Below, in pieces: positions 2,050 to 44,315 of a DNA stretch of 64,000 nt. This DNA comes from Pseudooceanicola nanhaiensis DSM 18065. Its GTDB lineage: Bacteria; Pseudomonadota; Alphaproteobacteria; Rhodobacterales; Rhodobacteraceae. Both the position numbers and the translations under genes were made by a program. Numbering within the stretch: the stretch's first letter is position 1; each line of letters opens with the position of its first letter. The stretch covers positions 992,001 to 1,056,000 of the forward strand of contig NZ_JHZF01000013.1 of assembly GCF_000688295.1 (NCBI RefSeq), given 5' to 3'. The notes beneath the pieces are model-generated. The model did not search any database and was not told where the DNA came from. It worked only from the letters and a program-made list of their open reading frames with translations.

Positions 2050-2952
2050 TCACTCCATCTTGCCGGGGGCGCCCACGCCCTCGCGTTGCAGCCGCTCGCG
2101 CAGCACGTCGATCTCGACGGTCAGGTCGCTCCTGTCGTCAAGCAAGAGCTTTTCCGTCCGGGCGGCGAAATTCTGCTCCAGGTCGGTGAGCAGCGCCTCG
2201 TAGCTCGCCCGTGCGCCCTGGCTGTGGTTGCGGGCGTAGATCTCGGTGAACTTCACCGTCGCGTCACGGGCCCCCATCAGGTAGACGCCCAGGAATTTCC
2301 GGGCCGAGGTCAGGTCGCGCGGATCGTTCTCGATCGTGCGGATCATGTCCTCGGCGGTGGCGCGGAAGCCCGCGACCCGTCCCGACAGGCCGCGGTCCCG
2401 CAGGGTGTCGATGGTGGTCTGCATGGTCTTCAGGTAGGCCTCGGCCTCGTCGACCACGCGCGCGACCCGGTCGCGCTGGAAGGTGTCGATCCCCTCGGCG
2501 CCCTTGTTGCGCAGCGGGTCCGGCCCGAAGGAGGCAAGGTGCAGCCCGCCCGCGATCACCGCGTATATCACCGCCGAGACCAGGTCGATCCCGTGCACGC
2601 TCGCGCCAAGCGCGGTGCCGACGGCGATCGAGAGCGAGCCCAGCATCTTGCGCGGAATGGCCGGGCGGCGGGCGATCTTGCGCTCGTGATAGGCGGCCTC
2701 GGCCCGGAGCCCCTCGCGCGTCAGCCAGGCACCGAGCACCCAGGCCCCGGCACCGAGCAGCCCGGTCGCAAGCCCGACGGCGCCGGCACCGAGCGCGGAG
2801 AACGCCAGCAGCACCGGCGGCACGAACAGCACGTTCGACCGCGCGCCCGCGGTGTTCGGCCGCTCCAGCCGCCGCGGCGGACGGGGCGGCGGGGTCTCGC
2901 CGGTCCCGCCGCGGGGGGCCGGGGAATACTGTCCGCCGTAGCGTTCGGCCAT
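2050..2952 (-). CDS. xpaC: XpaC-like membrane protein (PF10112 family)
   Basis: 300 residues. A proline/arginine-rich N-terminus (about residues 1-38) precedes two hydrophobic regions, roughly 40-77 and 95-135, which look like membrane hairpins. The rest is a charged helical cytoplasmic domain (for example DRVARVVDEAEAYLKTMQTT). This matches the XpaC / 5-bromo-4-chloroindolyl phosphate hydrolysis family, the usual partner of TelA. An upstream in-frame ATG at 2988 exists, but ATG 2952 overlaps the preceding gene's stop as TGATG, so I take 2952. The stop at 2050 lies 5 bases before telA. The family's enzymatic name is historical; its true role is uncertain, and membrane anchoring of TelA is an inference. 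Confidence 0.88.
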   Translation of the reverse strand: MAERYGGQYSPAPRGGTGETPPPRPPRRLERPNTAGARSNVLFVPPVLLAFSALGAGAVGLATGLLGAGAWVLGAWLTREGLRAEAAYHERKIARRPAIPRKMLGSLSIAVGTALGASVHGIDLVSAVIYAVIAGGLHLASFGPDPLRNKGAEGIDTFQRDRVARVVDEAEAYLKTMQTTIDTLRDRGLSGRVAGFRATAEDMIRTIENDPRDLTSARKFLGVYLMGARDATVKFTEIYARNHSQGARASYEALLTDLEQNFAARTEKLLLDDRSDLTVEIDVLRERLQREGVGAPGKME

Positions 2953-3143
2953 CACTCGGCCCCCAGCCAGCCGGTCGCCACACCGCACATCACGGTGATG
3001 AGCAGGGCATAGGAGATCTTCTGGATCGCGCCGCTCCGCCGCGTCGTGCCGGTCTCGGGCCGGCGCTCGAAGGCCGAGGCCACCAGCGAGGCCGCGGCGA
3101 CAAGTGCAGCCAGGAGAACCACTATGAGGAACAGCCGTGACAT
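2952..3143 (-). CDS. small single-pass membrane protein
   Basis: 63 residues from ATG 3143, which has a GGAGG 5-6 bases upstream; a longer reading from 3155 lacks this spacing. Residues 2-24 (SRLFLIVVLLAALVAAASLV onward) form one membrane segment. A short Arg/Thr-rich loop follows, then a second hydrophobic stretch (ALLITVMCGVATGWL) near the C-terminus, so a two-helix topology is also possible. The stop TGA shares a base with the xpaC ATG (TGATG), a strong sign of coupled translation. I do not recognise a named family. Position at the head of the xpaC-telA block suggests a small membrane partner of XpaC (inference). Confidence 0.75.
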   Translation of the reverse strand: MSRLFLIVVLLAALVAAASLVASAFERRPETGTTRRSGAIQKISYALLITVMCGVATGWLGAE

Positions 3144-3220
3144 CGCGCCCTCCACGGGTCAGGTTTCGTCATGAACATAGGGGGCGCCGGAGCGATCCGC
3201 CACCCTTGCCGTGGTGGCGA

Positions 3221-4039
3221 TCAGCGCGAGCTGCCGGCCTTGCGCGCCGCCGCGAGCTTGCGGGCATAGCCCGACTGGATGAACTCCACGACGAAAAGCA
3301 CCACCACCGAGAAGTAGAAGGTGGATTTCGACATCGGCACGATCTCGTAGCCGAAGACGCGCAGCGCCATGGCCTCGTCATGGGTCGCATGGGCCGCGGC
3401 CTGGCCGGCTTCGCCCAGCAGGACGACGCCCACGATCAGCAGGATGAAGAGGCCCAGAACCTCGAACATGCGGTTCTTTTCCAGGAAGGCCGTCACCGCG
3501 TCGGCGAGCAGCAGCATGGCGAGGCCCGACAGGATGATCGCCGCGGCGAGGACCGGGAAGACGTCGGTGATCGCGATGGCCGAGAGGACCGAATCGAAGC
3601 TGAAGATCAGGTTCATCAGCACGATCAGCAGGATCACCTGCGTCGCGGACTTGCCGTCCTTCGCCTCGACGTCGGAATGCAGGTCCTCGACGCTCAGCAT
3701 GTGGCCGATCTCCTTCACCGCGGTGTACATGATGAAGGCGCCGCCGAAGACGAAGACCAGCGTGGCGAAGTTGACGCCGCCGGTCAGCACGCCGTCCCAG
3801 CCGAAGACGAAGAACGGATCGGTCAGCGCGCCGAGCAGGCCGATCATCACGAAGAGCAGCACCACCCGCAGCGCCACGGCGATGATGATGCCCCAGAAGC
3901 GCACCGCCTTCTGCTGCGGGACCGGGGCGCGCTGGCTCTCGATCGAGATGTAGAGAAGGTTGTCGAACCCGAGTACCGCCTGCAGGAAGCAGAGCATGAG
4001 CAGGTTCAGAAGGTTCTCGATCGTCAGAAGGTCCGCCAT
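3221..4039 (-). CDS. terC: TerC family integral membrane protein
   Basis: 272 residues starting MADLLTIENLLNLLMLCFLQ; an upstream in-frame start at 4093 has no support. At least seven hydrophobic helices are visible, with the TerC signatures FLQAVLGFDNLLYI near the N-terminus and LIFSFDSVLSAIAITDVF in the middle; the acidic Asp residues in these two motifs are the conserved membrane-embedded ones. TerC proteins are linked to tellurium resistance and, in other bacteria, to manganese export or metalation of secreted proteins. It leads the leftward cluster, 77 bases ahead of the small membrane protein. Its C-terminal tail is basic (YARKLAAARKAG), cytoplasmic by the positive-inside rule. Confidence 0.93.
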   Translation of the reverse strand: MADLLTIENLLNLLMLCFLQAVLGFDNLLYISIESQRAPVPQQKAVRFWGIIIAVALRVVLLFVMIGLLGALTDPFFVFGWDGVLTGGVNFATLVFVFGGAFIMYTAVKEIGHMLSVEDLHSDVEAKDGKSATQVILLIVLMNLIFSFDSVLSAIAITDVFPVLAAAIILSGLAMLLLADAVTAFLEKNRMFEVLGLFILLIVGVVLLGEAGQAAAHATHDEAMALRVFGYEIVPMSKSTFYFSVVVLFVVEFIQSGYARKLAAARKAGSSR

Positions 4040-33685: not shown

Positions 33686-34750
33686 TCAGTTCCGGGCGAT
33701 CACCTGCTCCATCCACGGCACGAAGTTCGAGACTTTCGTGTAGGCCGAGAACAGCGCCGTCTCGACGCAGGTCATCGTCTGGCTGTCCGCGAAGCCCCAG
33801 GACACGACGCCCGCCTGGATGTAGGAGCCGTCCGCCAGCGGCACGACCAGCGGGCCGCCCGAGTCGCCCTGGCACGAGGTCTTGCCGCCCTCGTAGGTGC
33901 CCGAACACAGCATGTTGTCGGTCAGCGGCGCCTTGGCGCGCGAGATCAGCGCGGTCCATGCGGCCTGCGCGTCATCGCCCTTCACGTCGAGGATCTCGAG
34001 CGCCGCGATGAACGGATCGGCCGCGGCCTGGGCGCGGGCGTCCATGATGGCGCCGTTGCACTGGTCGCGGCCGAGGATCTGGATCTCGGCCTGGTACATG
34101 TCCGCGGGGTGCCGGCCGCCGTTGATCAGGCCCCAGCCGGTCACCACGGTCGGCACGCCGGTCACGTCGATCTGTTCGCCGAAGGTCCGGTCGGGCACGG
34201 TGATCGTCCTGTAGGGGACGTTCGGTTTCCGGGCGAGCTTGATCAGGGCGATGTCGCTGTCGAAGCCGTCGGGATTGTAGTTCTGGTTGCGGAAGATCCC
34301 TGCGACCGGAACCATGTCGCCCATGCCGGGCGCGATCCTGTTGGTGCCGACGAGGATGTTGATCTGCTCGGGCTGCAGGTCGAAATAGCCCTGCTGGTCC
34401 TGCATGTAGACGCAATGCGCCGCGGTCAGGACCCATTGGTCGAGGATCAGAGAGCCGCCGCAGAAATGGTTGTCGGGGCTGACCGGACGCCCGGCGATCA
34501 TCAGGCCGACCTGCCAGGGCCATGCGCCGTTCCGCGCGACCTGGCCGCCGATCACCTTGGAGCCCGAGGCCTCGGCCTCCTTGCGCGCGGTCTCGGCCTG
34601 CTCGGCCATCCTGCCGCTTTCGGCGAAGGCGAAGGGAGAGGAGACCTGCGGGTCCGTCTCGGGCTTCACGTCAAGGTTTTGGGACAATGCGGCGGTGGCC
34701 ATCGCCATGGCGGCGACGGTGGGCAAGGCCAGTCTCTTCAGAAAAGTCAT
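33686..34750 (-). CDS. secreted trypsin-like serine protease
   Basis: 354 residues. Signal peptide at 1-22 (LALPTVAAMAMATAALSQ). S1A triad intact: His in WVLTAAHCVYM, Asp in FDSDIALIKLAR, Ser in CQGDSGGPLVVP. Against bovine trypsin the stretch EGGKDSCQGDSGGP aligns exactly with EGGKTSCQGDSGGP, so the S1 pocket Asp189 is Thr: Arg/Lys specificity is not expected. An insert of about 35 residues (ARAQAAADPFIAALEILDVK region) precedes the pocket. The start follows 46 bases after the caspase gene on the same strand, so both are probably one message. Periplasmic or secreted. Role in the island unknown. Confidence 0.92.
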   Translation of the reverse strand: MTFLKRLALPTVAAMAMATAALSQNLDVKPETDPQVSSPFAFAESGRMAEQAETARKEAEASGSKVIGGQVARNGAWPWQVGLMIAGRPVSPDNHFCGGSLILDQWVLTAAHCVYMQDQQGYFDLQPEQINILVGTNRIAPGMGDMVPVAGIFRNQNYNPDGFDSDIALIKLARKPNVPYRTITVPDRTFGEQIDVTGVPTVVTGWGLINGGRHPADMYQAEIQILGRDQCNGAIMDARAQAAADPFIAALEILDVKGDDAQAAWTALISRAKAPLTDNMLCSGTYEGGKTSCQGDSGGPLVVPLADGSYIQAGVVSWGFADSQTMTCVETALFSAYTKVSNFVPWMEQVIARN

Positions 34751-34796
34751 TTGGGTCTATCTCTCTCTCGCGCTTCGCTGGTGAGGTGGTGGGTGG

Positions 34797-36845
34797 TTAT
34801 CGGGTGCCGGTCGGGACCAGCGTGATGCGGAAGCGCGTGACCTCGAGAGCGGGCAGCGCGCCGCGGAAACTGAAGTTGCGCATGCGGATTTCCGGATCGG
34901 CCGCGGCGAAGAGCCATTGCTCCAGTGCGGGCATGTCCGGTGCGCCCTCGCGCAGGTCGCGCATCTGCACCGGATCGGCGAGCGCGGTCAGCACGGTCCG
35001 GGGCGCGCCCTGCGCGGCGGGGGCCGAGAGGACGACGAGCTCCTCCTGACCCGGCACCTCGGCACGGTTGGTGATGAGCACGCCGATCTCCTCGGTCTCG
35101 CCGAAGGTCAGCCGGTTGGAGAGCGCGGCATCCGGGTAGATCGCCGTCACCCCGAAATCCCGGTCGATATAGAGCACGGTGATGTCGCGGGCTGTCTTCG
35201 AATTGTTGGCGACGCTCAGCCAGAGCTGATCGCAGGCGCTGGCCCGGGCCTCTCCGGCGACCGTCGTTTCGGCGCCCGGGGTGCCGCAGGCCGCGTCGCC
35301 GCCCGGCACGTCGACATGGGTCAGCCCGACCTTCAGCGCGGTGCCGGGCAGGGCGAAGGCGGCCTGTCCGCCGCCCTCGGCCGCGGCCAGCGCCCGGCGC
35401 AGGCGGTGCGTGCGGACCGCGCGGTCGAGGAAGGCCGCCATCTCGGGCCGTCCGGCGTCGGGTGCGAGCCGCGGGGAACTGCCCGCGCCCAGCCCGTCGA
35501 GCACGCCGTCCCGCCCGGCAAGCGCCAGGGTGGTTCCGGTGAAGACCGGCACGAGGTCCGGCGCGCCGTCGCCCGCGGGGGTGATGCCGTCAAGCCCGGC
35601 GGTCAGCTCTTCCAGGAGCGCGGGCAGGTCGCCCGGCCGTGCGCCCTCCGCCATCGCCGGCGCGCCAAGGCGCAGGGGCGCGGGCAGCGCCGGGCGGTGG
35701 AGCTTCGCGTAGCCGCTGGCGGGCAGGCCGGGCGTGCGGGCGAGCGTGGCGCTGGCCGCCTTCGCCTCGGTCACCTCGGCCAGCACGGGGTCGCCCTTGG
35801 CCGCGGCATCGGCATGGACCGCGACCTCCGCGCCCGCCGCGATCCCGTTCAGCAGGCCCGCCCGCAGCGTCGCGCCCTCGGTCGGCCAGACGGGGGCCGG
35901 GGGCGCGGCCGCGCCGAAGACCGCCTCTTCCAGCAGCGGGCCCTCGGCGTCGGGTGTCTGTGCCGCGGGTCCGTCCTTTGCCATGCCGTCCACCGCGGCC
36001 ATCAGCGCCTGCGACCAGCTCAGCCCCGGGGCGCCGCCGAGCACCGGCATCAGCGCCCGGGTGAAATCGCCGTACCAGCTGTGCGGATCGGCCGGGTCGC
36101 CCAGGGGGTATTCGAAGCTGCGCTGGTCGCTCTGGGACGAATAGAGAAAGACGAAGCGCCCCTCGAGCGGCGGGGCGATCCGGCCCGGCTCGCTGTCGCC
36201 CGCGACCGCCCCCGGCACGCCGAGCGCCGCCGGGTCGATGTAGCGCGCGGCCGAGACCGCGGGATCGTTCAGCGCCCGGAATCCGGTCGCCGAATGGCAG
36301 GCGTCGAGGATCGCGACCAGCTCGGCCCCGGTGTCGAGGATCGCCTGCATCTTCAGGGCCAGCTCGTCGTCGATCAGCGCATTCTCGACCCCGCCGATCG
36401 CGCCTTTCCAGTTCTTCGCGTCAGACGGCAGGAGGATCTCGTCATAGCCGCCCGCCTCGTCGCCGCTGGCATCGGGCATCTGGGACCCGTGGCCCGAGAA
36501 GTAGAACACCACGGTGTCTTCGGCCGTCACTTCTGCCGCCAGCCGGTCGAGCGCGGCCAGGATCGCGGCCCGGCGCGGCGCCTCGGCAACCGTCAGGCCT
36601 TCGGCCAGGCGCACGTCCGGCGCGGCGAGGATCGTCAGGGAGGCAGGCGTCGCGCCGCGGGCCAGCAGCATGGAAGAGACCAGTCCGACGTCATTGGCGG
36701 GCCCGCGCAGATCCGCGTCGAGGTATTCGTAATCCGAGACGCCGATCACCAGGCCGCGCACCTCGGCCGGGGCGGCGAGGGCGGTGAGGCAAAGGCATGC
36801 GGCCGCGGACAGACGCCGGGCCAGAATGGGCAGCAGCAATGACAT
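34797..36845 (-). CDS. caspase family (C14) protein 1, exported
   Basis: 682 residues. Signal peptide at about 1-27 (RRLSAAACLCLTALAAPAE). The caspase fold starts at RGLVIGVSDYEYLDADLRGP; the catalytic dyad is His in VVFYFSGHGSQMPDAS and Cys in LVAILDACHSATGF, both intact. The middle (about 330-500) is Ala/Gly rich with no clear domain. The C-terminal part (DITVLYIDRDFGVTAIYPDA, then EEIGVLITNRAEVPGQEEL) is a beta-rich module also found in the second caspase here. Prokaryotic caspases cleave after Arg, Lys or Asp; specificity here is not readable. Upstream of the trypsin-like gene, which could be its activator or target (inference). Confidence 0.92.
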   Translation of the reverse strand: MSLLLPILARRLSAAACLCLTALAAPAEVRGLVIGVSDYEYLDADLRGPANDVGLVSSMLLARGATPASLTILAAPDVRLAEGLTVAEAPRRAAILAALDRLAAEVTAEDTVVFYFSGHGSQMPDASGDEAGGYDEILLPSDAKNWKGAIGGVENALIDDELALKMQAILDTGAELVAILDACHSATGFRALNDPAVSAARYIDPAALGVPGAVAGDSEPGRIAPPLEGRFVFLYSSQSDQRSFEYPLGDPADPHSWYGDFTRALMPVLGGAPGLSWSQALMAAVDGMAKDGPAAQTPDAEGPLLEEAVFGAAAPPAPVWPTEGATLRAGLLNGIAAGAEVAVHADAAAKGDPVLAEVTEAKAASATLARTPGLPASGYAKLHRPALPAPLRLGAPAMAEGARPGDLPALLEELTAGLDGITPAGDGAPDLVPVFTGTTLALAGRDGVLDGLGAGSSPRLAPDAGRPEMAAFLDRAVRTHRLRRALAAAEGGGQAAFALPGTALKVGLTHVDVPGGDAACGTPGAETTVAGEARASACDQLWLSVANNSKTARDITVLYIDRDFGVTAIYPDAALSNRLTFGETEEIGVLITNRAEVPGQEELVVLSAPAAQGAPRTVLTALADPVQMRDLREGAPDMPALEQWLFAAADPEIRMRNFSFRGALPALEVTRFRITLVPTGTR

Positions 36846-37079
36846 CGGGGCTCCAGGGCTCCTTCTTGCGGCAAGAGTTGCAGGGGATTGGACGGTCGAT
36901 CAAGAAAAACGAGAATGTGACTTGAATTGTCATGAAGGCGCTCCAAAGCGCGCGCCCGGTGCGGGCCGTCGCATGGACGCGTCTGCACGCACCACCTGTG
37001 CGCGACACGGCTCTGGCGCGGCTCCCCCTCGGATTGCGCGGCGCAGCTGCGGAGGCGTGCCGCCGATCTCAAGGCCGTT

Positions 37080-38558
37080 TCAGGGGCGGGGCAGGGACGG
37101 CCAGGCGATCTCGATCCGGAAGCCCCTGGGCGCGGCTGGCAGGGAAAGCTTCGCCCCGTGCCGCGCGGCGATGGCCTGCACCAGCGCAAGGCCCAGCCCG
37201 TGCCCCGCGACCGCGCGGTCCCTCTCGCCACGGGTGAAGCGGTCGAAGACGGTGGCGCGGATGTCGTCGGGCACGCCGGGGCCGGTGTCGGCGACGGTCA
37301 GCATGTGGCGTTCGCCGGCCGTGACACTGAGCGTCACGCCGTCGCCCGGGCCGGTGAACTTGATCGCGTTGTCGAGCAGGTTCGACACCAGCTGCGCGAT
37401 CAGGTTGCGCTCGCCCAGGACCCAGGCGCCGGGCTCGATCCGTGCTTCGGGGATGAGGCCGCGGTCCTCGGCCAGCGGTTCGTACAGCTCGTAGACCTCG
37501 GCCGCGATGGCCGACAGGTCCACCGGCACCAGCCCCGGGCGCTGGCCCGAGGCGGCCTCGGCGCTCGAGATGTCGAGCAGGCTGTCGAAGATGCGCACGG
37601 TGCCGGCCATGTCCTCGCGGATCGCGGCGACGTCCTCGTCCTGGCCCTCCAGCCGGTCGAGCCGCTGGCGGATGCGGTTCAGCGGCGTCCGCAGCTCGTG
37701 CGCGATGGCGTCCGACAGCCGGTGCGTCGCGCGGTTCAGGGCCTCGATCCGGTCGAGCATCTGGTTGACGTGCCGCTCGAGCGCGCCGAATTCGTCGGCG
37801 GATTGCGGCCCTGGCAGGCGCGCCGAGAGGTCGCCCCCCGCCACGCGGTCGGCCAGCGCGTTGATCCGTCCGATCCGGCCCACCACCGCCCGCGCGACCA
37901 GCCAGCCCGCCAGAAGCGCCAGCGTCGAGAGGCCCGCGGCCACCCAGAGGATCGTGCCGCGCAGCTCGTCCAGCGTCCCGGTCACCGGGGTCCAGGCGCG
38001 GGCGGCGAGGAAGGGAAAGCCGCCGGGCAGCTCGCGCGCGACGCCAAGGTATTCGGTGCCGTCGATGGCGATCTCGCTCAGGGGGGCGGGGGCGAAGAGC
38101 GCGCCCTCGGGCGCGAGGGCGCCGGGCCAGCGGTCGATATTGCCGGCCAGCGTCGTGCCATTGCGGTCCTGCAAGAGATAGAGCCCTTCGTCCGGCGTGG
38201 TGAGCGCGGCCCGCGCCGCGATCGCCTCGCGCAGGCCGGGGATGCGGCGCTGTTCGTAGAACTGGGCGAAGCCCGACAGCTCGGCCGAGAGAAGCTCGGC
38301 CTGGCGGGTTTCGAGCGCCGTGGCCGTGATCCGGTACTGCAGCGCCATGGCCGAGAGCGACAGCACGATGATCCCCGCCGCCACGATGAGCGTGACGCGG
38401 AGCGAGGCGGAACTGGCGAGGGACCGTCGGGGTGGGCTCAAGCGGGACACCCGGGATGGGGCCGCGGGCCCGGGGTGCGCGGCGCCGCGCCGCCCGAACG
38501 GAGACGCCCTCCGCCCGAAGACATCACCCGACCGGGTCCTTCTGCGGGTCGAAGACAT
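37080..38558 (-). CDS. sensor histidine kinase (two-component system)
   Basis: Up to 492 residues. First membrane helix near residue 52-70 (LRVTLIVAAGIIVLSLSAMA), a periplasmic sensor of about 120 residues with no recognised fold, second helix (LWVAAGLSTLALLAGWLVA), HAMP, then the dimerisation/phospho-acceptor His in SDAIAHELRTPLNRIRQRL and the ATPase: N box NLLDNAIKFTG, G1 DTGPGVPDD, G2 GHGLGLALV. The start is unsure: ATG 38558 overlaps the response regulator by 35 bases, and a GTG at 38450 would give a shorter, cleaner N-terminus. It lies between the regulator and caspase 1, so it probably senses envelope conditions for the protease island. Confidence 0.88.
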   Translation of the reverse strand: MSSTRRRTRSGDVFGRRASPFGRRGAAHPGPAAPSRVSRLSPPRRSLASSASLRVTLIVAAGIIVLSLSAMALQYRITATALETRQAELLSAELSGFAQFYEQRRIPGLREAIAARAALTTPDEGLYLLQDRNGTTLAGNIDRWPGALAPEGALFAPAPLSEIAIDGTEYLGVARELPGGFPFLAARAWTPVTGTLDELRGTILWVAAGLSTLALLAGWLVARAVVGRIGRINALADRVAGGDLSARLPGPQSADEFGALERHVNQMLDRIEALNRATHRLSDAIAHELRTPLNRIRQRLDRLEGQDEDVAAIREDMAGTVRIFDSLLDISSAEAASGQRPGLVPVDLSAIAAEVYELYEPLAEDRGLIPEARIEPGAWVLGERNLIAQLVSNLLDNAIKFTGPGDGVTLSVTAGERHMLTVADTGPGVPDDIRATVFDRFTRGERDRAVAGHGLGLALVQAIAARHGAKLSLPAAPRGFRIEIAWPSLPRP

Positions 38559-39231
38559 AGCCCACGCCGCGGTCGGTGTGGATCACCGGGTGCCCGGCGG
38601 CCTGTTCCAGCTTCCGCCGCAGTCGGCCGACATGCACGTCCACGACATTGGTCTGCGGGTCGAAATGCAGGTTCCAGACGTTCTCGAGCAATTGCATCCG
38701 CGTCACCACCTCGCCGGCGTTGCGGGCGAAATAGGCGATCAGCTCGAACTCCTTCGGGCTGACCGGGACATGGGCGTTCTTCACATGCACCGTCCGCGCC
38801 TTCATGCGGATCTGCAGATCGCCGAAGGTCACGAGGTCGTTGTCCATCACGACCATCTCCTGCCGCCTGAGGAGTGCCCGCAGCCGCGCCCGGAGCTCGT
38901 CGGCGTCGAAGGGCTTGGCAAGGTAATCGTCCGCGCCCTTCTCGAGCCCCTCGATCTTGTTCGCCGCCCGCCCGAGCGCCGAGACCACGAGCACCAGCGC
39001 GGTCGAACCGGCCGCGCGGATCTTCGCGATCGCGTCGATCCCGTCGCCGCCCGGCAACATCCGGTCGAAGACGATCACCCGGAACTCGGCCAGCCCGGCG
39101 GCCCTGAGCCCGTCCTCGTAGCTCTGCATGACCACCGGCTCGCAGCCCAGGTCACGCACGGCGGCGGACAGGGCGGCGGCGGCCTCGGCATCGTCCTCGA
39201 CGATGAGAATGCGGGCGGTCTGGGTCGTCAT
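38524..39231 (-). CDS. OmpR-family response regulator
   Basis: 235 residues. Receiver: acidic pocket IVEDDAEA, phospho-acceptor Asp in IVFDRMLPGGDG near residue 57, and Lys in YLAKPFDADEL. The C-terminal winged helix has VSPKEFELIAYFARNAGEVV and VDVHVGRLRRKLEQAAG. It is a DNA-binding activator or repressor. It starts 20 bases after the HtrA-like gene and overlaps the kinase. Targets unknown, but the neighbouring proteases are the obvious candidates. Confidence 0.94.
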   Translation of the reverse strand: MTTQTARILIVEDDAEAAAALSAAVRDLGCEPVVMQSYEDGLRAAGLAEFRVIVFDRMLPGGDGIDAIAKIRAAGSTALVLVVSALGRAANKIEGLEKGADDYLAKPFDADELRARLRALLRRQEMVVMDNDLVTFGDLQIRMKARTVHVKNAHVPVSPKEFELIAYFARNAGEVVTRMQLLENVWNLHFDPQTNVVDVHVGRLRRKLEQAAGHPVIHTDRGVGYVFDPQKDPVG

Positions 39232-39251
39232 GGCGGCTCCTCGGGTCCAGA

Positions 39252-40598
39252 TCAGAACACCACCACCGCAGGGTCAAGCGCATTCGCGCCGCTCCGGGGC
39301 ACATCGGGCCGGCGCGTGGCCCAGGGGTCGACCATCACGTGCAGGCGGCGCCCGTGCCGCAGGACCCGCAGCAGGCGGGGCCCGTCGATCCGTTCCGCGG
39401 CAAGCGACAGGGCGGTGACCTCGGTGCCGTTCACCGCCTCGATCTCGTCGCCCTCGGCAAGGCCCGCGGCCCAGGCCGGGCTGGTCTGCGTCAGGGCCGC
39501 AACCCGCCGCGTGCCCGGCGCCAGCGTCACGCCGAGCCCGGCCCAGCCGTAGCTCTGCACCCGCTGAAGTCCCGCGGGCGCCGCGCCGAGCGCGCCTGTC
39601 TCCGCCGGACGGGGGTCGAGGTCGAGCGGCACCGCGATCTCGCTGCCCGCGCGCCAGATCACCAGCCGGGCCGTGCCGCCGGTCACCTCGCCCAGGATCA
39701 TGCCCAGATCGCCCGGCGTCATGATCGGCCGCCCGGCGAGCGACAGCAGCACGTCGCCCGCGGCCACCCCGGCGCGCCAGCCCCGGCCACGGCTTTCGAC
39801 GTGGTCGACCAGCACGCCGCGGGGCGTCTCCAGCCCGATCAGCCGGGCGATCCGCCCGGTCACGGGGCGCAGCGCGAGCCCGAGGTCGGGCACCGGGGAG
39901 AGCTTGCCCGCCACCATCCCGGACAGCGCAGCCACGGGGATCGCATAGCCGATCCCGGCGAAGAGCCGGGTGCCGTCGGCGATCCGCGTGTTGATCCCCA
40001 CGAGCCGCCCGTCCGCGCCGATCAGCGGCCCGCCGGACGACCCGGGATTGATCGCGGCATCGTGCTGGATCAGCCGCAGGGGGACGTTGGGCTCCACCTG
40101 CCGGGCCGGGACCGAGACGATGCCGCGGGTCACCGTGCCCGCCGCCTGCAGCGGGGCGCCGAGCGCAAAGACCTCGTCCCCGGTCAGCGCGCCGCCGGAA
40201 CCGGGCACGAGCCCCGGTCCGAACATCGTCGTGGCGAGCGCAAGGACCGAGATGTCCCGGCGGGGATCGCTGGCGATCACCTGCGCCGGGGCGCTCCGGC
40301 CATGCCGGTCCTCGACGATCACGCTCCGGCGGTCCTTCACGACATGCGCGGCGGTGACCACGCGGTCGCCGTCGCCCCAGAGCGTGGCCGAGCCGAGGAA
40401 CCCGCGCCCCTCGTCGTCCTCGCGCAGCACCAGCGTCGCGTCGAGCGCGTGGTCGAAGCCCGAGGCGGCGGTATTCCCCGCCCGGCCGGGACCGCCGCCG
40501 CCCAGTGTCATCACGGCCAGCAGAGCGAGCAGCGGAACGATCAGCAGCAGCGGTGTCCGGCGCAGACGGCGCAGGCTCCGTGTCTTCATCTGGGGCAT
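39252..40598 (-). CDS. HtrA/Deg-like serine protease with PDZ domains
   Basis: 448 residues from ATG 40598, with GGGAGG 8-9 bases upstream. A basic N-terminus and one membrane helix (LLLIVPLLALLAVMTLGGGG) anchor it to the inner membrane, facing the periplasm. Triad: His in DRVVTAAHVVKDR, Asp in DPRRDISVLALA, Ser in AAINPGSSGGPLIG. Two PDZ-like domains follow (VESRGRGWRAGVAAGDVLLS near 285 and TSPAWAAGLAEGDEIEAVNG near 390). Fits DegS/HtrA-type envelope proteases that sense misfolded proteins. Heads the leftward set of regulator, kinase, caspase and trypsin-like genes and is divergent from the secreted PPC-like gene. Confidence 0.9.
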   Translation of the reverse strand: MPQMKTRSLRRLRRTPLLLIVPLLALLAVMTLGGGGPGRAGNTAASGFDHALDATLVLREDDEGRGFLGSATLWGDGDRVVTAAHVVKDRRSVIVEDRHGRSAPAQVIASDPRRDISVLALATTMFGPGLVPGSGGALTGDEVFALGAPLQAAGTVTRGIVSVPARQVEPNVPLRLIQHDAAINPGSSGGPLIGADGRLVGINTRIADGTRLFAGIGYAIPVAALSGMVAGKLSPVPDLGLALRPVTGRIARLIGLETPRGVLVDHVESRGRGWRAGVAAGDVLLSLAGRPIMTPGDLGMILGEVTGGTARLVIWRAGSEIAVPLDLDPRPAETGALGAAPAGLQRVQSYGWAGLGVTLAPGTRRVAALTQTSPAWAAGLAEGDEIEAVNGTEVTALSLAAERIDGPRLLRVLRHGRRLHVMVDPWATRRPDVPRSGANALDPAVVVF

Positions 40599-40757
40599 GG
40601 CGTGCCTCCCGGCCTGTTGATGCGGCCAAGGTAGGCGCGGGCCGGTGACGGCGCACATGACAAGTTCGTTCATCGGCCGGATCGGCGGAAAAACCTTTTG
40701 AACGGGGAGGGACTCCGTCTCATTATCCGGGCGACCGGACTGGAAAGGCCTGATCCC

Positions 40758-41423
40758 ATGCGCAAATTCGCCACGCCCCTCCTTGCCGCCGCACTCGGCC
40801 TCGGGCCGCTGGCCGCCGTCGCCGAGCCCGTGTCGACCGACGGGGACCATGCCGCGATGAGCCCGCTCCGCCGCGCCGCGGTCTCGGCCGAGCTCTTCGA
40901 GCAGGCGCTGGCCGAACGCGATCCGCTCCTGGCGCTGGCGGCGGCCAGCCTGCGCCGGACGGTCTTCGGCACCGAGGTCGCGCGCGAGCCGGAACGCGAC
41001 GGACCCGTGCCCGCGGGCGCGGCGGAGCCTCCGGTCGGCTGGGAGGACATGCTCGATACCGCGGTGGCGCTGGCGCCGGGCGATCCGACGATCGAGGGGC
41101 TGGCCGACGACATGCGGATGGCGCGGACCAAGGGGGTCGTGTCGGGCAAGGTCTATTCGATCAGCCAGATCGGGGCGGGCGGAGAGGACACCTATCGCCC
41201 GCTGGAATACGAGGGCAACGCCTATGCCGAGGTCTATGTCGAGGGCCGCGGGCCCGCCGACATCAACGTGGAGGTCTTCGACAGCGCCGGGAAACTGGTC
41301 TGTTCGGACACCGACATCAGCTCCATCGCCTATTGCGGCTGGCGCCCGATCGTCAACGACACCTTCGCCGTCGTCGTCATGAACGGCGGTGAGGAGACCT
41401 CCTACACCCTTATCACCAACTGA
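40758..41423 (+). CDS. secreted protein with PPC-like C-terminal domain
   Basis: 221 residues from ATG 40758 (MRKFATPLLAAALGLGPL is the signal peptide, cleavage near AVAEP). The N-terminal half is helical and I do not recognise it. The C-terminal 85 residues, YVEGRGPADINVEVFDSAGK then CSDTDISSIAYCGWRPI and FAVVVMNGGEETSYTLITN, look like a prepeptidase C-terminal (PPC) beta-sandwich, with two Cys that could form a bridge. PPC modules are usual partners of exported proteases. Starts the divergent arm, 16 bases ahead of caspase 2; an internal regulator or substrate-binding partner is an inference. Confidence 0.8.
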   Translation: MRKFATPLLAAALGLGPLAAVAEPVSTDGDHAAMSPLRRAAVSAELFEQALAERDPLLALAAASLRRTVFGTEVAREPERDGPVPAGAAEPPVGWEDMLDTAVALAPGDPTIEGLADDMRMARTKGVVSGKVYSISQIGAGGEDTYRPLEYEGNAYAEVYVEGRGPADINVEVFDSAGKLVCSDTDISSIAYCGWRPIVNDTFAVVVMNGGEETSYTLITN

Positions 41424-41439
41424 TCATTGGATTGATCCC

Positions 41440-43569
41440 ATGCGACACCTGATCCGTGCCGGCCTCGTCTCGGCCCTTGCCCTCGCCGCGGCCCTCCCGG
41501 CGCTCGCCGACTCCCGCGCGCTGCTGATCGGGGCCTCGAAATACGACAACCTCGACGAATCCGCCTGGCTCTACGGTCCGACGAACGACGTGGAACTGGT
41601 GAAGGGGTATCTGACCTCGAACCCCGTGATGCGCTTCGCGCCCGCCAACGTGACCGTTCTGGCCGACGGGGTGGAGGGGGCCGCGCCCGCCACGCTGGCC
41701 GCGATCCGGGCAGAGATGGCGGCGCTGGCCGAGGCCTCGGCGCCGGGCGATTTCGTCTATCTGCATTTCTCCGGCCACGGCACGCAGGCCCCGGCGGCCG
41801 ATCCGGCGACCGAGCTCGACGGTCTGGACGAGCTGTTCCTGCCGGTCGACATCGGCCCGTGGAACGATACCGTCGGCACGGTCGAGAACGCGCTGGTCGA
41901 TGACGAGATCGGCGCGATGATCGACGCGATCCGCGCGAAGGGCGCGGATGTCTGGGTGGTCTTCGACAGCTGCCATTCCGGCACCGCCACCCGCGCCGCG
42001 CCCGCCGAGGCGGACGAGGTGCGGCAGCGCCAGCTCAGGCCCGAGGATCTGGGCATCCCCGCGGCCGCGCTCGCCGCCGCCGAGGGACGGAGCCGCGGCG
42101 TACCATCGGACGATCCGCGCGCGCGTCCCGAGGCCTCGGTCGAGGCAGCGGCCGGAGCGGAGGCCGAAGGGCAGGGGCGGCTCGTCGCCTTCTTCGCCGC
42201 CCAGACGACCGAGACGACGCCCGAGAAGAACATGCCGCGCGGCCAGCCCGGGCGGAAGCCGCAGGGGGTCTTCACCTACACGCTGTTCGAGACGATGGCC
42301 GAGCGGCCGGGGATCACCTATCGCCAGCTCGCGCAGGAAGTGCTGCGGAAGTATTCGGTGCTGAACCTCGCCCGGTCCACGCCGCTGTTCGAGGGCGATC
42401 TCGACCAGCCGGTCTTCGGCGAAGGCGGGGCGGGCCTGATCCAGCAATGGACGGCCACGCAGGACGGTGCGGCGCTGAAGGTGCCCGCGGGCACGCTGCA
42501 CGGGCTGGTGCCGGGCACCGGACTTCTGATGCTGGCCTCTCCGGCCGACCCGGACGAGGCCGCGCTGGCGCGCTACACGATCGCAGACGCCTCGACCTTC
42601 TCGGCCTCGGCCCGGCCCGAGGGCGCCGCCCCGAACGAGGTGCCGCCGGGCGCGGTGCTGCGCAAGGTGGCGCAGGAGCTGGACTTCACCCTGACCGTCG
42701 CCCTGCCGCCCGAGGGCTCCGCCCCGGCCGGGGCGATGGCCGCGGCGGTCGAGGAGATGATGGCCGAACCCGCCCTCGCGGCGCGGGTGCGGTTCGTGCC
42801 CGCGGGCACCGAGGGGGCGGAGCTGCGGCTGGCCGTGCTGCCCGAGAGCCCGCGCCCCGACGCGCTCTGGTTGCTGCCGGCCACCGGGCTGGTCGCCGAA
42901 GAGGACCTGCCCCGCACCCCGTCGATCTCGACCGCGGACAAGACCCCGGCCCAGCTTTCGGCGGTGCTCGCCGACAGTTTCGCGACCGTCGCCAAGGCGC
43001 TGAACCTGATGAAGGTGGGCGCGGCCACCGCCAGCGCGCCGCTGCCGGTCGAGGCACGGCTGATCACCGGCCGGTTCGACCCGCAGACCGGCACGGTGGT
43101 CGAGGGCAGCCGGGCCATGCTGGAAGAGGCGGTCGTGCCCCGCATGGTGCCCGACGACACGATCGGGCTGCGGCTCACCAACAGCGGCGAGACGCCGGTC
43201 GATTACAACCTGCTCTACGTCGGGGTGGATTACGGGATCACCTTCATGGGCAACGGGCGGATGCAGCCGGGCGCCACGCTCGACGACGATTTCGTGCTGA
43301 TCACCGACGAAAACTTCGGCCGCGACCGGCTGATCGTGATCCTCTCGCCCGTCTCGGGGCAGACCGCGACCGAGGATCTGTCGTTTCTCGAGCAGGATCC
43401 GCTGAACATGGCGCGCAAGGCGATGACCGGGGGCGTGCGCGGCCTGCTCGACATGGCGGGCTTCGGGCAGACCACCCGCGGCGGGATCACCCTGTCCAGC
43501 CGGGCCAGGACGCCCGAGCCGGTGCCGGTCTTCCTGCAATACGAGATCGAGACGGTGCCGGGCGACTAG
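41440..43569 (+). CDS. caspase family (C14) protein 2, exported
   Basis: 709 residues from ATG 41440; an upstream in-frame ATG at 41389 overlaps the PPC gene. Signal peptide at about 1-22 (LVSALALAAALPALADS). Catalytic His in FVYLHFSGHGTQAPA and Cys in VWVVFDSCHSGTATR, both intact. Between them and the C-terminus is a loop rich in Glu, Ala and Arg (around residues 195-250), then the Ala/Gly-rich middle, then the beta-rich end VDYNLLYVGVDYGITFMGNG and FGRDRLIVILSPVSG, similar to caspase 1. Paralogue of caspase 1 with low identity. The gap to the PPC gene is 16 bases, indicating one operon. Confidence 0.93.
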   Translation: MRHLIRAGLVSALALAAALPALADSRALLIGASKYDNLDESAWLYGPTNDVELVKGYLTSNPVMRFAPANVTVLADGVEGAAPATLAAIRAEMAALAEASAPGDFVYLHFSGHGTQAPAADPATELDGLDELFLPVDIGPWNDTVGTVENALVDDEIGAMIDAIRAKGADVWVVFDSCHSGTATRAAPAEADEVRQRQLRPEDLGIPAAALAAAEGRSRGVPSDDPRARPEASVEAAAGAEAEGQGRLVAFFAAQTTETTPEKNMPRGQPGRKPQGVFTYTLFETMAERPGITYRQLAQEVLRKYSVLNLARSTPLFEGDLDQPVFGEGGAGLIQQWTATQDGAALKVPAGTLHGLVPGTGLLMLASPADPDEAALARYTIADASTFSASARPEGAAPNEVPPGAVLRKVAQELDFTLTVALPPEGSAPAGAMAAAVEEMMAEPALAARVRFVPAGTEGAELRLAVLPESPRPDALWLLPATGLVAEEDLPRTPSISTADKTPAQLSAVLADSFATVAKALNLMKVGAATASAPLPVEARLITGRFDPQTGTVVEGSRAMLEEAVVPRMVPDDTIGLRLTNSGETPVDYNLLYVGVDYGITFMGNGRMQPGATLDDDFVLITDENFGRDRLIVILSPVSGQTATEDLSFLEQDPLNMARKAMTGGVRGLLDMAGFGQTTRGGITLSSRARTPEPVPVFLQYEIETVPGD

Positions 43570-43584
43570 GGATGCGGCGCCGCC

Positions 43585-44199
43585 TCAGCGCTTCGGGTTG
43601 ACGATGCCGTTCATGAAGAGGTCGAGGAAATGGTCCGCGACCACCTCGGGGCTCATCGCGTCGTCCTCGGTGTGCCAGCGCAGGATCCAGTTCACCGCGC
43701 CGAGGAAGAAGTTCGAGGTCACCCGCACATTGACCGGCCGCAGCGCGCCTTCCTCGATGGCCTTCTCGATCAGCATCCGCGAATAGCGATCCAGCTGCCG
43801 CCGCCGTTCCAGGAGCTCTTCCTGCTGGGCCTCGGGCAGGGCGCGGATATTGGCCATCGTCGTGTAGGCGCCACGCTCGACCATCAGGTTCTCCATGAAC
43901 CGGCGGTAGAGCAGCTGCAGCTTCTCGAAGGCGGTGCCGTCGGTCTTCTCGGCCTCGAGCCGGGCGTTCTGACCGCAATTGTAGGTCAGCCGAAGGCAAT
44001 CGTAGAGCAGCTGCTCCTTGTTCTTGAAGTAATAATAGAGAGCGGTCTTGGTGACGCCGATCTCGTCGGCGATCTCGTCGAGAGAGGTGGCGTGATAGCC
44101 CTTCTCGTTGAAGATCCGCGCGGCGACCCGCAGGGCGGCCCGGCGCTTCAGTTCCCGGATTTCCTCACGCGACGCGACCGCGCCATTCCAGTTTGCCAT
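43585..44199 (-). CDS. TetR family transcriptional regulator
   Basis: 204 residues from MANWNGAVASREEI, with GGAAG upstream; the frame is open further, but only ATG 44199 has a ribosome site. Helix-turn-helix: ATSLDEIADEIGVTKTALYYYFKNKEQLLYD at residues about 35-65, split here as SLDEIADEIGVTK and ALYYYFKNKEQLLYD. The ligand domain has no named motif. Faces the TRAP operon across a 681-base region with three palindromes. It converges on caspase 2 with 15 bases between the stops. Likely regulates the importer or itself. Confidence 0.93.
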   Translation of the reverse strand: MANWNGAVASREEIRELKRRAALRVAARIFNEKGYHATSLDEIADEIGVTKTALYYYFKNKEQLLYDCLRLTYNCGQNARLEAEKTDGTAFEKLQLLYRRFMENLMVERGAYTTMANIRALPEAQQEELLERRRQLDRYSRMLIEKAIEEGALRPVNVRVTSNFFLGAVNWILRWHTEDDAMSPEVVADHFLDLFMNGIVNPKR

Positions 44200-44286
44200 G
44201 CGACTTCCATTCCTGACGGCGGCGCGGTCCGGCGCGGCGCTGGACTGTCCGGAGCGACAATCGGCCGGCGATACCTGACGCCACGG

Positions 44287-44315
44287 TAACATCTTATTCC
44301 AATCGGTCTGGTCAA
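44287..44315 (-). promoter_or_regulatory. possible leftward promoter of tetR
   Basis: TTGACC (44315-44310), 17 bases, ATGTTA (44292-44287). The -10 is poor; a candidate only. Confidence 0.3.

Follow-up and report, generated by a model that had tools for sequence, protein, structure and literature searches.

The DNA analysed here, called the window throughout, is a stretch of 64,000 nucleotides from Pseudooceanicola nanhaiensis DSM 18065 (contig NZ_JHZF01000013.1, positions 992,001 to 1,056,000). Seven of its genes, encoding two caspases (peptidase family C14), an S1A serine protease, an HtrA-like protease, a small secreted-looking "PPC-like" protein, a sensor histidine kinase and a response regulator, are a conserved system. 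According to our preferred reading, to which we assign a probability of about 0.62, the cluster would be a two-component envelope regulon in which the caspases activate the zymogen of the S1A protease. The same operator-like motif precedes the HtrA-like gene, the PPC-like and caspase 2 genes and the caspase 1 and S1A genes. Regulation of the cluster by its own two-component system is well supported in silico, and the sequences suggest that the cluster regulator binds the motif; export, caspase specificity and zymogen activation we infer from the encoded proteins.

The seven genes of the window

Open reading frame (ORF) calls and Pfam matches bear out the gene identities, strands and coordinates given by an earlier reading of the letters (the original prediction), and the genes are intact. 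Five lie on the minus strand, and the PPC-like gene, which precedes caspase 2, diverges from them together with caspase 2 on the plus strand:

33686-34750, minus strand: S1A serine protease zymogen (Pfam Trypsin, 1.5e-45; MASP-2 alignment; orthologue columns)
34797-36845, minus strand: caspase 1, C14, metacaspase-like (Pfam Peptidase_C14, 9.7e-23; nearest solved relatives; dyad and acidic residues)
37080-38558, minus strand: sensor histidine kinase (Pfam HAMP, HisKA and HATPase)
38524-39231, minus strand: OmpR-type response regulator (Pfam Response_reg and Trans_reg_C)
39252-40598, minus strand: HtrA-like protease with PDZ domains (Pfam Trypsin_2 and PDZ; longest ORF 39252-40850, likely and here assumed start 40598)
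40758-41423, plus strand: "PPC-like" small secreted-looking protein (family without a Pfam entry; two conserved Cys)
41440-43569, plus strand: caspase 2, C14, metacaspase-like (Pfam Peptidase_C14, 5.5e-15; paralogue of caspase 1)

The intact His/Cys dyads that had been claimed for both caspases are present in the window sequences. Export, also claimed, agrees with the N-termini as judged by eye (that of caspase 1 resembles a signal peptide), and found no help from two signal-peptide heuristics, which did not discriminate and were not used; the second was positive for 24 of 68 response regulators and failed on the window's own S1A protease. Of the label "PPC-like" the small secreted-looking protein stands and the family does not: the protein matches no Pfam family at E 0.1, and the name is kept merely as a handle. 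Among the 120 matches listed of 773 homologues there is no Pfam domain and such names as are given read "hypothetical" or "uncharacterized", and solved structures yielded no credible match.

The HtrA-like protein combines a trypsin-like domain bearing His-Asp-Ser with PDZ, as expected of HtrA/Do proteases, and scores 196.9 against a cut-off of 416.2 with the NCBIfam Do model. Its catalytic residues are kept in 27 of 29 sequences of a first set of loci, and each residue in 65 of 71 among the named loci. The window kinase and regulator likewise stay below the NCBIfam cut-offs of named two-component systems (Cpx, Bae, Cop/Czt), with best scores of 159.2 bits against 292.55 and 177.7 bits against 279.2, respectively.

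Conservation of the cluster

A scan of named genomes returned 141 caspase 2 relatives, of which the best 80 were used; 15 of these 80 loci, with less than 9 kb upstream of caspase 2, were left out of the synteny counts. The gene set is kept together in relatives, a point that the original prediction had put forward for checking: the five-gene core (caspase 2, PPC-like, HtrA, regulator and kinase) is found in 60 of the 65 remaining Rhodobacteraceae loci, and the core together with caspase 1 and S1A, that is all seven genes, in 52. Gene by gene, PPC-like is present in 64 loci, regulator and kinase in 62 each, HtrA in 60, caspase 1 in 54 and S1A in 53. Caspase 1 occurs without S1A in one locus (L178) and S1A without caspase 1 in none, and the pair is inverted in three (L180, L183 and L189). 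Since related genomes of the family repeat this gene order, we reject a chance neighbourhood. Carriers include marine and freshwater bacteria; non-pathogenic ones are found among Shimia, Thalassovita and Fuscovulum blasticum.

The distribution over the family was surveyed in 394 genomes, including the organism's own. Caspase 2 (E <= 1e-50) and PPC-like (E <= 1e-15) were each found in 31, with 28 genomes in common; PPC-like occurs without caspase 2 in G006, G156 and G430, and caspase 2 without PPC-like in G073, G316 and G373. S1A matches at E <= 1e-20 occur in 29 genomes, 23 of which reach 1e-100, the next being at 1e-51, and all 23 genomes with such orthologues carry caspase 2 (hypergeometric P 7.9e-31, phylogeny ignored). 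In a search of 60 genomes, caspases 1 and 2 were found together in 3 of 21 other genomes of the genus and in one of another genus (G026).

Relatives also contain members that the window lacks. Many carry a patatin-like gene (Pfam 5.9e-14) between caspase 1 and the kinase, present in 47 of the 65 loci, whose nucleophile Ser and DG motif are kept in 20 of 20 sequences; a lipobox pattern matches 42 of 49 of these proteins, and the same pattern also matches 21 of 68 regulators. This genome has no match to the patatin-like gene, and the gap between caspase 1 and the kinase (36846-37079) measures only 234 bp. Among the 80 loci, 20 have a second PPC-like gene (PPC2), in many relatives near the S1A and caspase 1 genes, 10 a large TPR protein and 9 a CHAT protein (CHAT, 1.9e-52).

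One carrier record, CP059262.1 (L182), is titled Exiguobacterium profundum, a Firmicute; it contains a Rhodobacteraceae cluster and is probably misnamed.

A shared motif at the starts of transcription units

Words common to the HtrA/PPC-like regions of the window and 28 relatives led to ACATGACA, and a matrix refined on the HtrA/PPC-like intergenic regions alone scores above 6 bits in 27 of these 29 training regions, the exceptions being L095 and L098; when the whole locus of L095 was scanned, a 34.8-bit site appeared outside the region first taken. The consensus of the 16-21 bp site is about TCACATGACAAnnnCnGTCAT, readable as a direct repeat, YGWCA-N5-YGWCA, or as an inverted one, TGAC-N7-GTCA. 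Direct repeats are often used by OmpR-type regulators. The window holds two copies:

40653-40673, plus strand: motif copy GCACATGACAAGTTCGTTCAT in the HtrA/PPC-like divergent intergenic region (29.9 bits), a putative regulator site
36917-36932, minus strand: weak motif copy TGACAATTCAAGTCAC upstream of caspase 1 (10.1 bits)

To count motifs gene by gene, a 16-column core was scored at a threshold of 10 bits over 300 bp upstream of each gene and 150 bp inside its longest ORF. In the first set the motif lies upstream of HtrA (23/29), PPC-like (24/30), caspase 1 (17/22) and PPC2 (10/12), and upstream of caspase 2 in 2 of 34 cases; none was found upstream of S1A (0/22), patatin (0/20), kinase (0/29), regulator (0/29), TPR (0/9) or CHAT (0/7). 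A held-out set, the 58 of the 80 named loci that have no sampled 60-mer in common with the first set, gave HtrA 47/52, PPC-like 47/56 (the same divergent site), caspase 1 34/39 and PPC2 13/18, next to caspase 2 8/58, regulator 4/49, patatin 1/36 and CHAT 1/9, and none for kinase (0/49), S1A (0/38) and TPR (0/4). For caspase 1, the 34 of 39 compare with a mean of 0.26 and a maximum of 3 for column-permuted matrices; over all genes the permuted means range from 0.03 to 0.69 and the maxima from 1 to 5, except for one permutation that matched 29 of 49 kinase regions. By this distribution over genes, the site stands where transcription units start and not at their inner genes.

The motif also goes with the regulator gene. 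Of the 62 loci with the regulator, 60 have a copy within 1.3 kb upstream of caspase 2; of the three that lack the regulator none has one there, two of these three having a match of 10.0 or 11.1 bits elsewhere. Where S1A is detached from the cluster (five genomes), caspase 1 lies alongside in all five, and the site stands at the caspase 1 start in four; one such region (L219) has three further motif matches elsewhere and a caspase 1 split over two ORFs, and in two others a CHAT gene (L223) and a PPC2 gene (L222) have sites of their own. Distant genes fit the same pattern: a PPC2 gene at 3552441-3553055 of G344 has a site at 3553256, and a site precedes a TPR-CHAT gene of G220 (L230). In G018 (L229) the site is followed by a small exported-looking ORF and then a CHAT gene; at the matching place of the present genome (L226) site and small ORF are kept and there is no CHAT gene.

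Genome-wide, a loose pattern matched 59 times in six cluster-carrying genomes against 12 for its reversed control, and 70 against 29 times in ten genomes without caspase 2, one of which (G006) has a PPC-like gene; the strict core gave 28 and 13 matches, respectively.

Two side observations concern distant copies. The small ORF, of about 70-80 amino acids (L226, about 2822-3200; L229, about 3635-4000), is kept in two species. In G220 (L231, 2415-6001) a motif copy precedes the gene of a long protein with RTX repeats; a further two-component pair lies alongside.

The S1A zymogen and its predicted activators

The S1A protein has the hallmark of a zymogen, a basic P1 residue ahead of a hydrophobic new N-terminus; in the window the activation site is Ser-Lys / Val-Ile-Gly-Gly. 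P1 is basic in all 53 orthologues of the named genomes (Lys in 30, Arg in 23), followed by VIGG in 42, VVGG in 6, VLGG in 3, IIGG in 1 and GIGG in 1. His57 and Asp102 are kept in 53 of 53 and Ser195 in 51, the other two being gapped. The original prediction had called this protease trypsin-like, which is right for the fold and not for the S1 pocket: when placed by alignment to MASP-2, the best solved sequence match, residue 189 is Thr in 46 orthologues, including that of the window, Gly in 2, and otherwise Leu, Val and Ser, and Asp, required for the Arg/Lys specificity of trypsin, occurs in 0 of 51 readable sequences, with two gapped. What we take to be position 226 is Ser in 51 of 51. Since residue 189 is Thr, the specificity is predicted not to be that of trypsin, and since the pocket lacks Asp189 and is not basic-specific, the protease is not expected to cleave its own activation site; residues 189 and 226 thus disfavour a self-activating trypsin.

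Both caspases look metacaspase-like and are predicted to cut after Arg/Lys. Each has a C14 domain with a His/Cys dyad and the acidic S1 residues of metacaspases and orthocaspases. In caspase 1, His is present in 54 of 55 sequences (one gap) and Cys in 55 of 55; in caspase 2 each is present in 78 of 80 (one gap, one lost). The Asp two residues before Cys is found in 55 of 55 and 79 of 80 sequences, and the Asp of the ND motif in 54 of 55 and 78 of 80, the remainder being gaps. The roles of these residues are presumably those known from TbMCA2; in metacaspases they line a basic-specific pocket. Arg/Lys or basic specificity is stated for such enzymes in the accessible parts of PMC8283722 and PMC6426788. 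The nearest solved relatives are metacaspases and the uncharacterised GSU0716. The NCBIfam model for EACC1-associated caspases gave 29.5 and 44.6 bits against a cut-off of 140. The two are paralogues over most of their length (hhalign probability 100, 605 columns), with a long C-terminal half that has no Pfam match; DUF4384, which it resembles by eye, was rejected, as none of the 10 members of set A1 matched this Pfam family at E 1.

All seven C14 matches of the genome lie on a single contig (C13, 433710-1035851; 1.42 Mb of the 4.66 Mb genome), and one of them (L001) has Sel1 repeat matches as well, within a stretch whose translation shows stops as X.

Proposed mechanism and alternatives

In the mechanism we propose, an envelope signal would reach the kinase-regulator pair encoded inside the cluster, and the regulator would bind the 16-21 bp site and switch on three units, namely HtrA, regulator and kinase (with the patatin lipoprotein where present), PPC-like and caspase 2, and caspase 1 and S1A; in relatives its targets may further include PPC2 and certain secreted CHAT proteins. 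The S1A zymogen needs a basic-specific protease, and the only predicted ones in the cluster are the neighbouring caspases. In our reading these, rather than S1A itself, would cleave at Lys/Arg / Val-Ile-Gly-Gly, and the serine protease thereby set free would differ from them in specificity. For the proteolytic cascade of the original prediction, the basic zymogen site, the non-basic S1A pocket and the caspase acidic residues thus offer indirect support; the cleavage step itself we infer. A more specific version, a clotting- or Toll-type envelope cascade in which exported metacaspases activate the serine zymogen and the PPC-like proteins are dedicated caspase partners, is a tentative proposal that we rate at somewhat below even odds. 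Such a cascade would operate outside the cytoplasm: transcription would make it ready, and proteolysis would set it off.

Several observations weigh against the regulon with caspase-activated zymogen. The caspase 1 site of the window is weak, at 10.1 bits against a threshold of 10; L182 and L207 have the regulator and no site, and one detached caspase 1-S1A unit (L221) is without a site. The HtrA proteins of L074 and L076 have lost catalytic residues (despite this they keep position and motif, possible pseudo-proteases), and caspase 2 of L091, a locus where no other cluster gene was called, has both dyad residues replaced. The basic site of S1A could also be cleaved by a protease from outside the cluster. 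Finally, caspase-free modules occur in the genus. In the window a TetR-type gene (43585-44292) follows caspase 2, and beside this gene the genomes of the genus hold the full cluster, a caspase-free module or none. Of 12 such regions, four (G014, G021, G017 and G009) have a module with neither caspase nor S1A, and eight have no module. All four modules keep PPC-like and the kinase, of which G021 has only a part; HtrA and regulator were recovered in three, patatin likewise in three, and the motifs score 20.2, 11.2, 19.6 and 24.9 bits, respectively; the signalling core therefore persists without caspases. Of the eight module-free regions (about 17 kb), five still hold a match at or above the 10-bit threshold, in one case of 20.7 bits, so that single weak matches mean little.

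The persistence of this core, and the presence of HtrA and a patatin-like lipoprotein in the set, would suit co-regulated envelope quality control without a cascade, in which HtrA, caspases, S1A and patatin clear damaged proteins and lipids separately and the S1A activator is unrelated. We nevertheless consider this unlikely: S1A orthologues occur only alongside caspase 2 (23 of 23 genomes), S1A adjoins caspase 1 even when detached (5 of 5), and P1 stays basic in 53 of 53 orthologues while the S1A pocket is not basic-specific.

Programmed death or anti-phage lysis, in which a trigger would set caspases, S1A and the phospholipase-like patatin to degrade the cell, appears more doubtful still. 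Caspase, trypsin-fold and CHAT proteins do belong to known bacterial conflict systems, according to the accessible parts of PMC12799240 and PMC7159879, and the distribution is patchy (31 of 394 genomes). However, two-component transcription fits a slower response, and Pfam revealed no nuclease, pore or STAND gene in the window cluster. A PADLOC scan returned caspase, RT-Protease_XI, PDC-M35A and weak LmuA matches only, hence no anti-phage signature beyond generic proteases, and a known defence system was rejected. The caspase-free modules of the genus argue against cell death as the sole purpose of the cluster. Exoenzymes that feed on outside protein and lipid under a nutrient-sensing kinase are highly improbable: the secretion-like N-termini and the one distant motif copy ahead of the RTX-repeat protein would agree with them, but HtrA and the lipoprotein-like patatin point to the envelope, and Pfam showed no secretion system in the window cluster.

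Relation to known systems

Each part of the cluster belongs to a known kind. CpxRA-DegP systems are envelope-stress two-component regulons with an HtrA target, and the cluster resembles them in its OmpR-type regulator, its HAMP kinase, HtrA as a putative target and an operator between divergent genes; it differs in having two exported caspases and an S1A zymogen among these targets, and its scores with the NCBIfam models of CpxA, BaeS and similar proteins are far under the cut-offs. Complement, clotting and Toll are extracellular S1A cascades. They share with the cluster an S1A zymogen whose basic activation site is cut by another protease, a step predicted here, whereas the predicted activator is of the caspase fold, bacterial and under a two-component system. 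The caspases have the His/Cys dyad and the acidic residues near the active site of metacaspases and orthocaspases; unlike these, they are exported, as judged by eye, have a long C-terminal half and share their regulon with the zymogen of a serine protease.

The best-known settings of bacterial caspases are cytoplasmic systems of defence and death. In antiphage defence, caspases or trypsin-like proteases activate nucleases (Canu caspase-nuclease and trypsin-nuclease pairs; PMC12799240, accessible parts). There as in our prediction a protease activates a neighbouring proenzyme, which in the Canu pairs is a nuclease and here would be a second protease, in the envelope. The trypsin-caspase fusions of Alphaproteobacteria with a QC (dead) caspase dyad, described in the part of PMC6426788 available, also link S1 and C14 domains; here the proteins are separate and the dyads are kept in nearly all. 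For multi-peptidase NucA systems of Alphaproteobacteria, a proteolytic cascade has been proposed (PMC7159879, accessible parts). The combination of exported caspases and a separate serine zymogen, controlled by a two-component system, is absent from the accessible parts of these three papers. Among the open-access papers listed by full-text searches, judged by title and abstract start, and with subscription papers mostly outside this scope, we found no description of the cluster.

To our knowledge, few natural substrates of bacterial caspases are known, and we know of no zymogen cascade that joins two unrelated protease folds in the bacterial envelope. The cluster offers a predicted natural caspase substrate, namely the zymogen encoded next door, for which the bond to be cut can be named; it also supplies a regulator, an operator and several hosts that can be cultured. 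Caspase function outside the cytoplasm thereby becomes directly testable.

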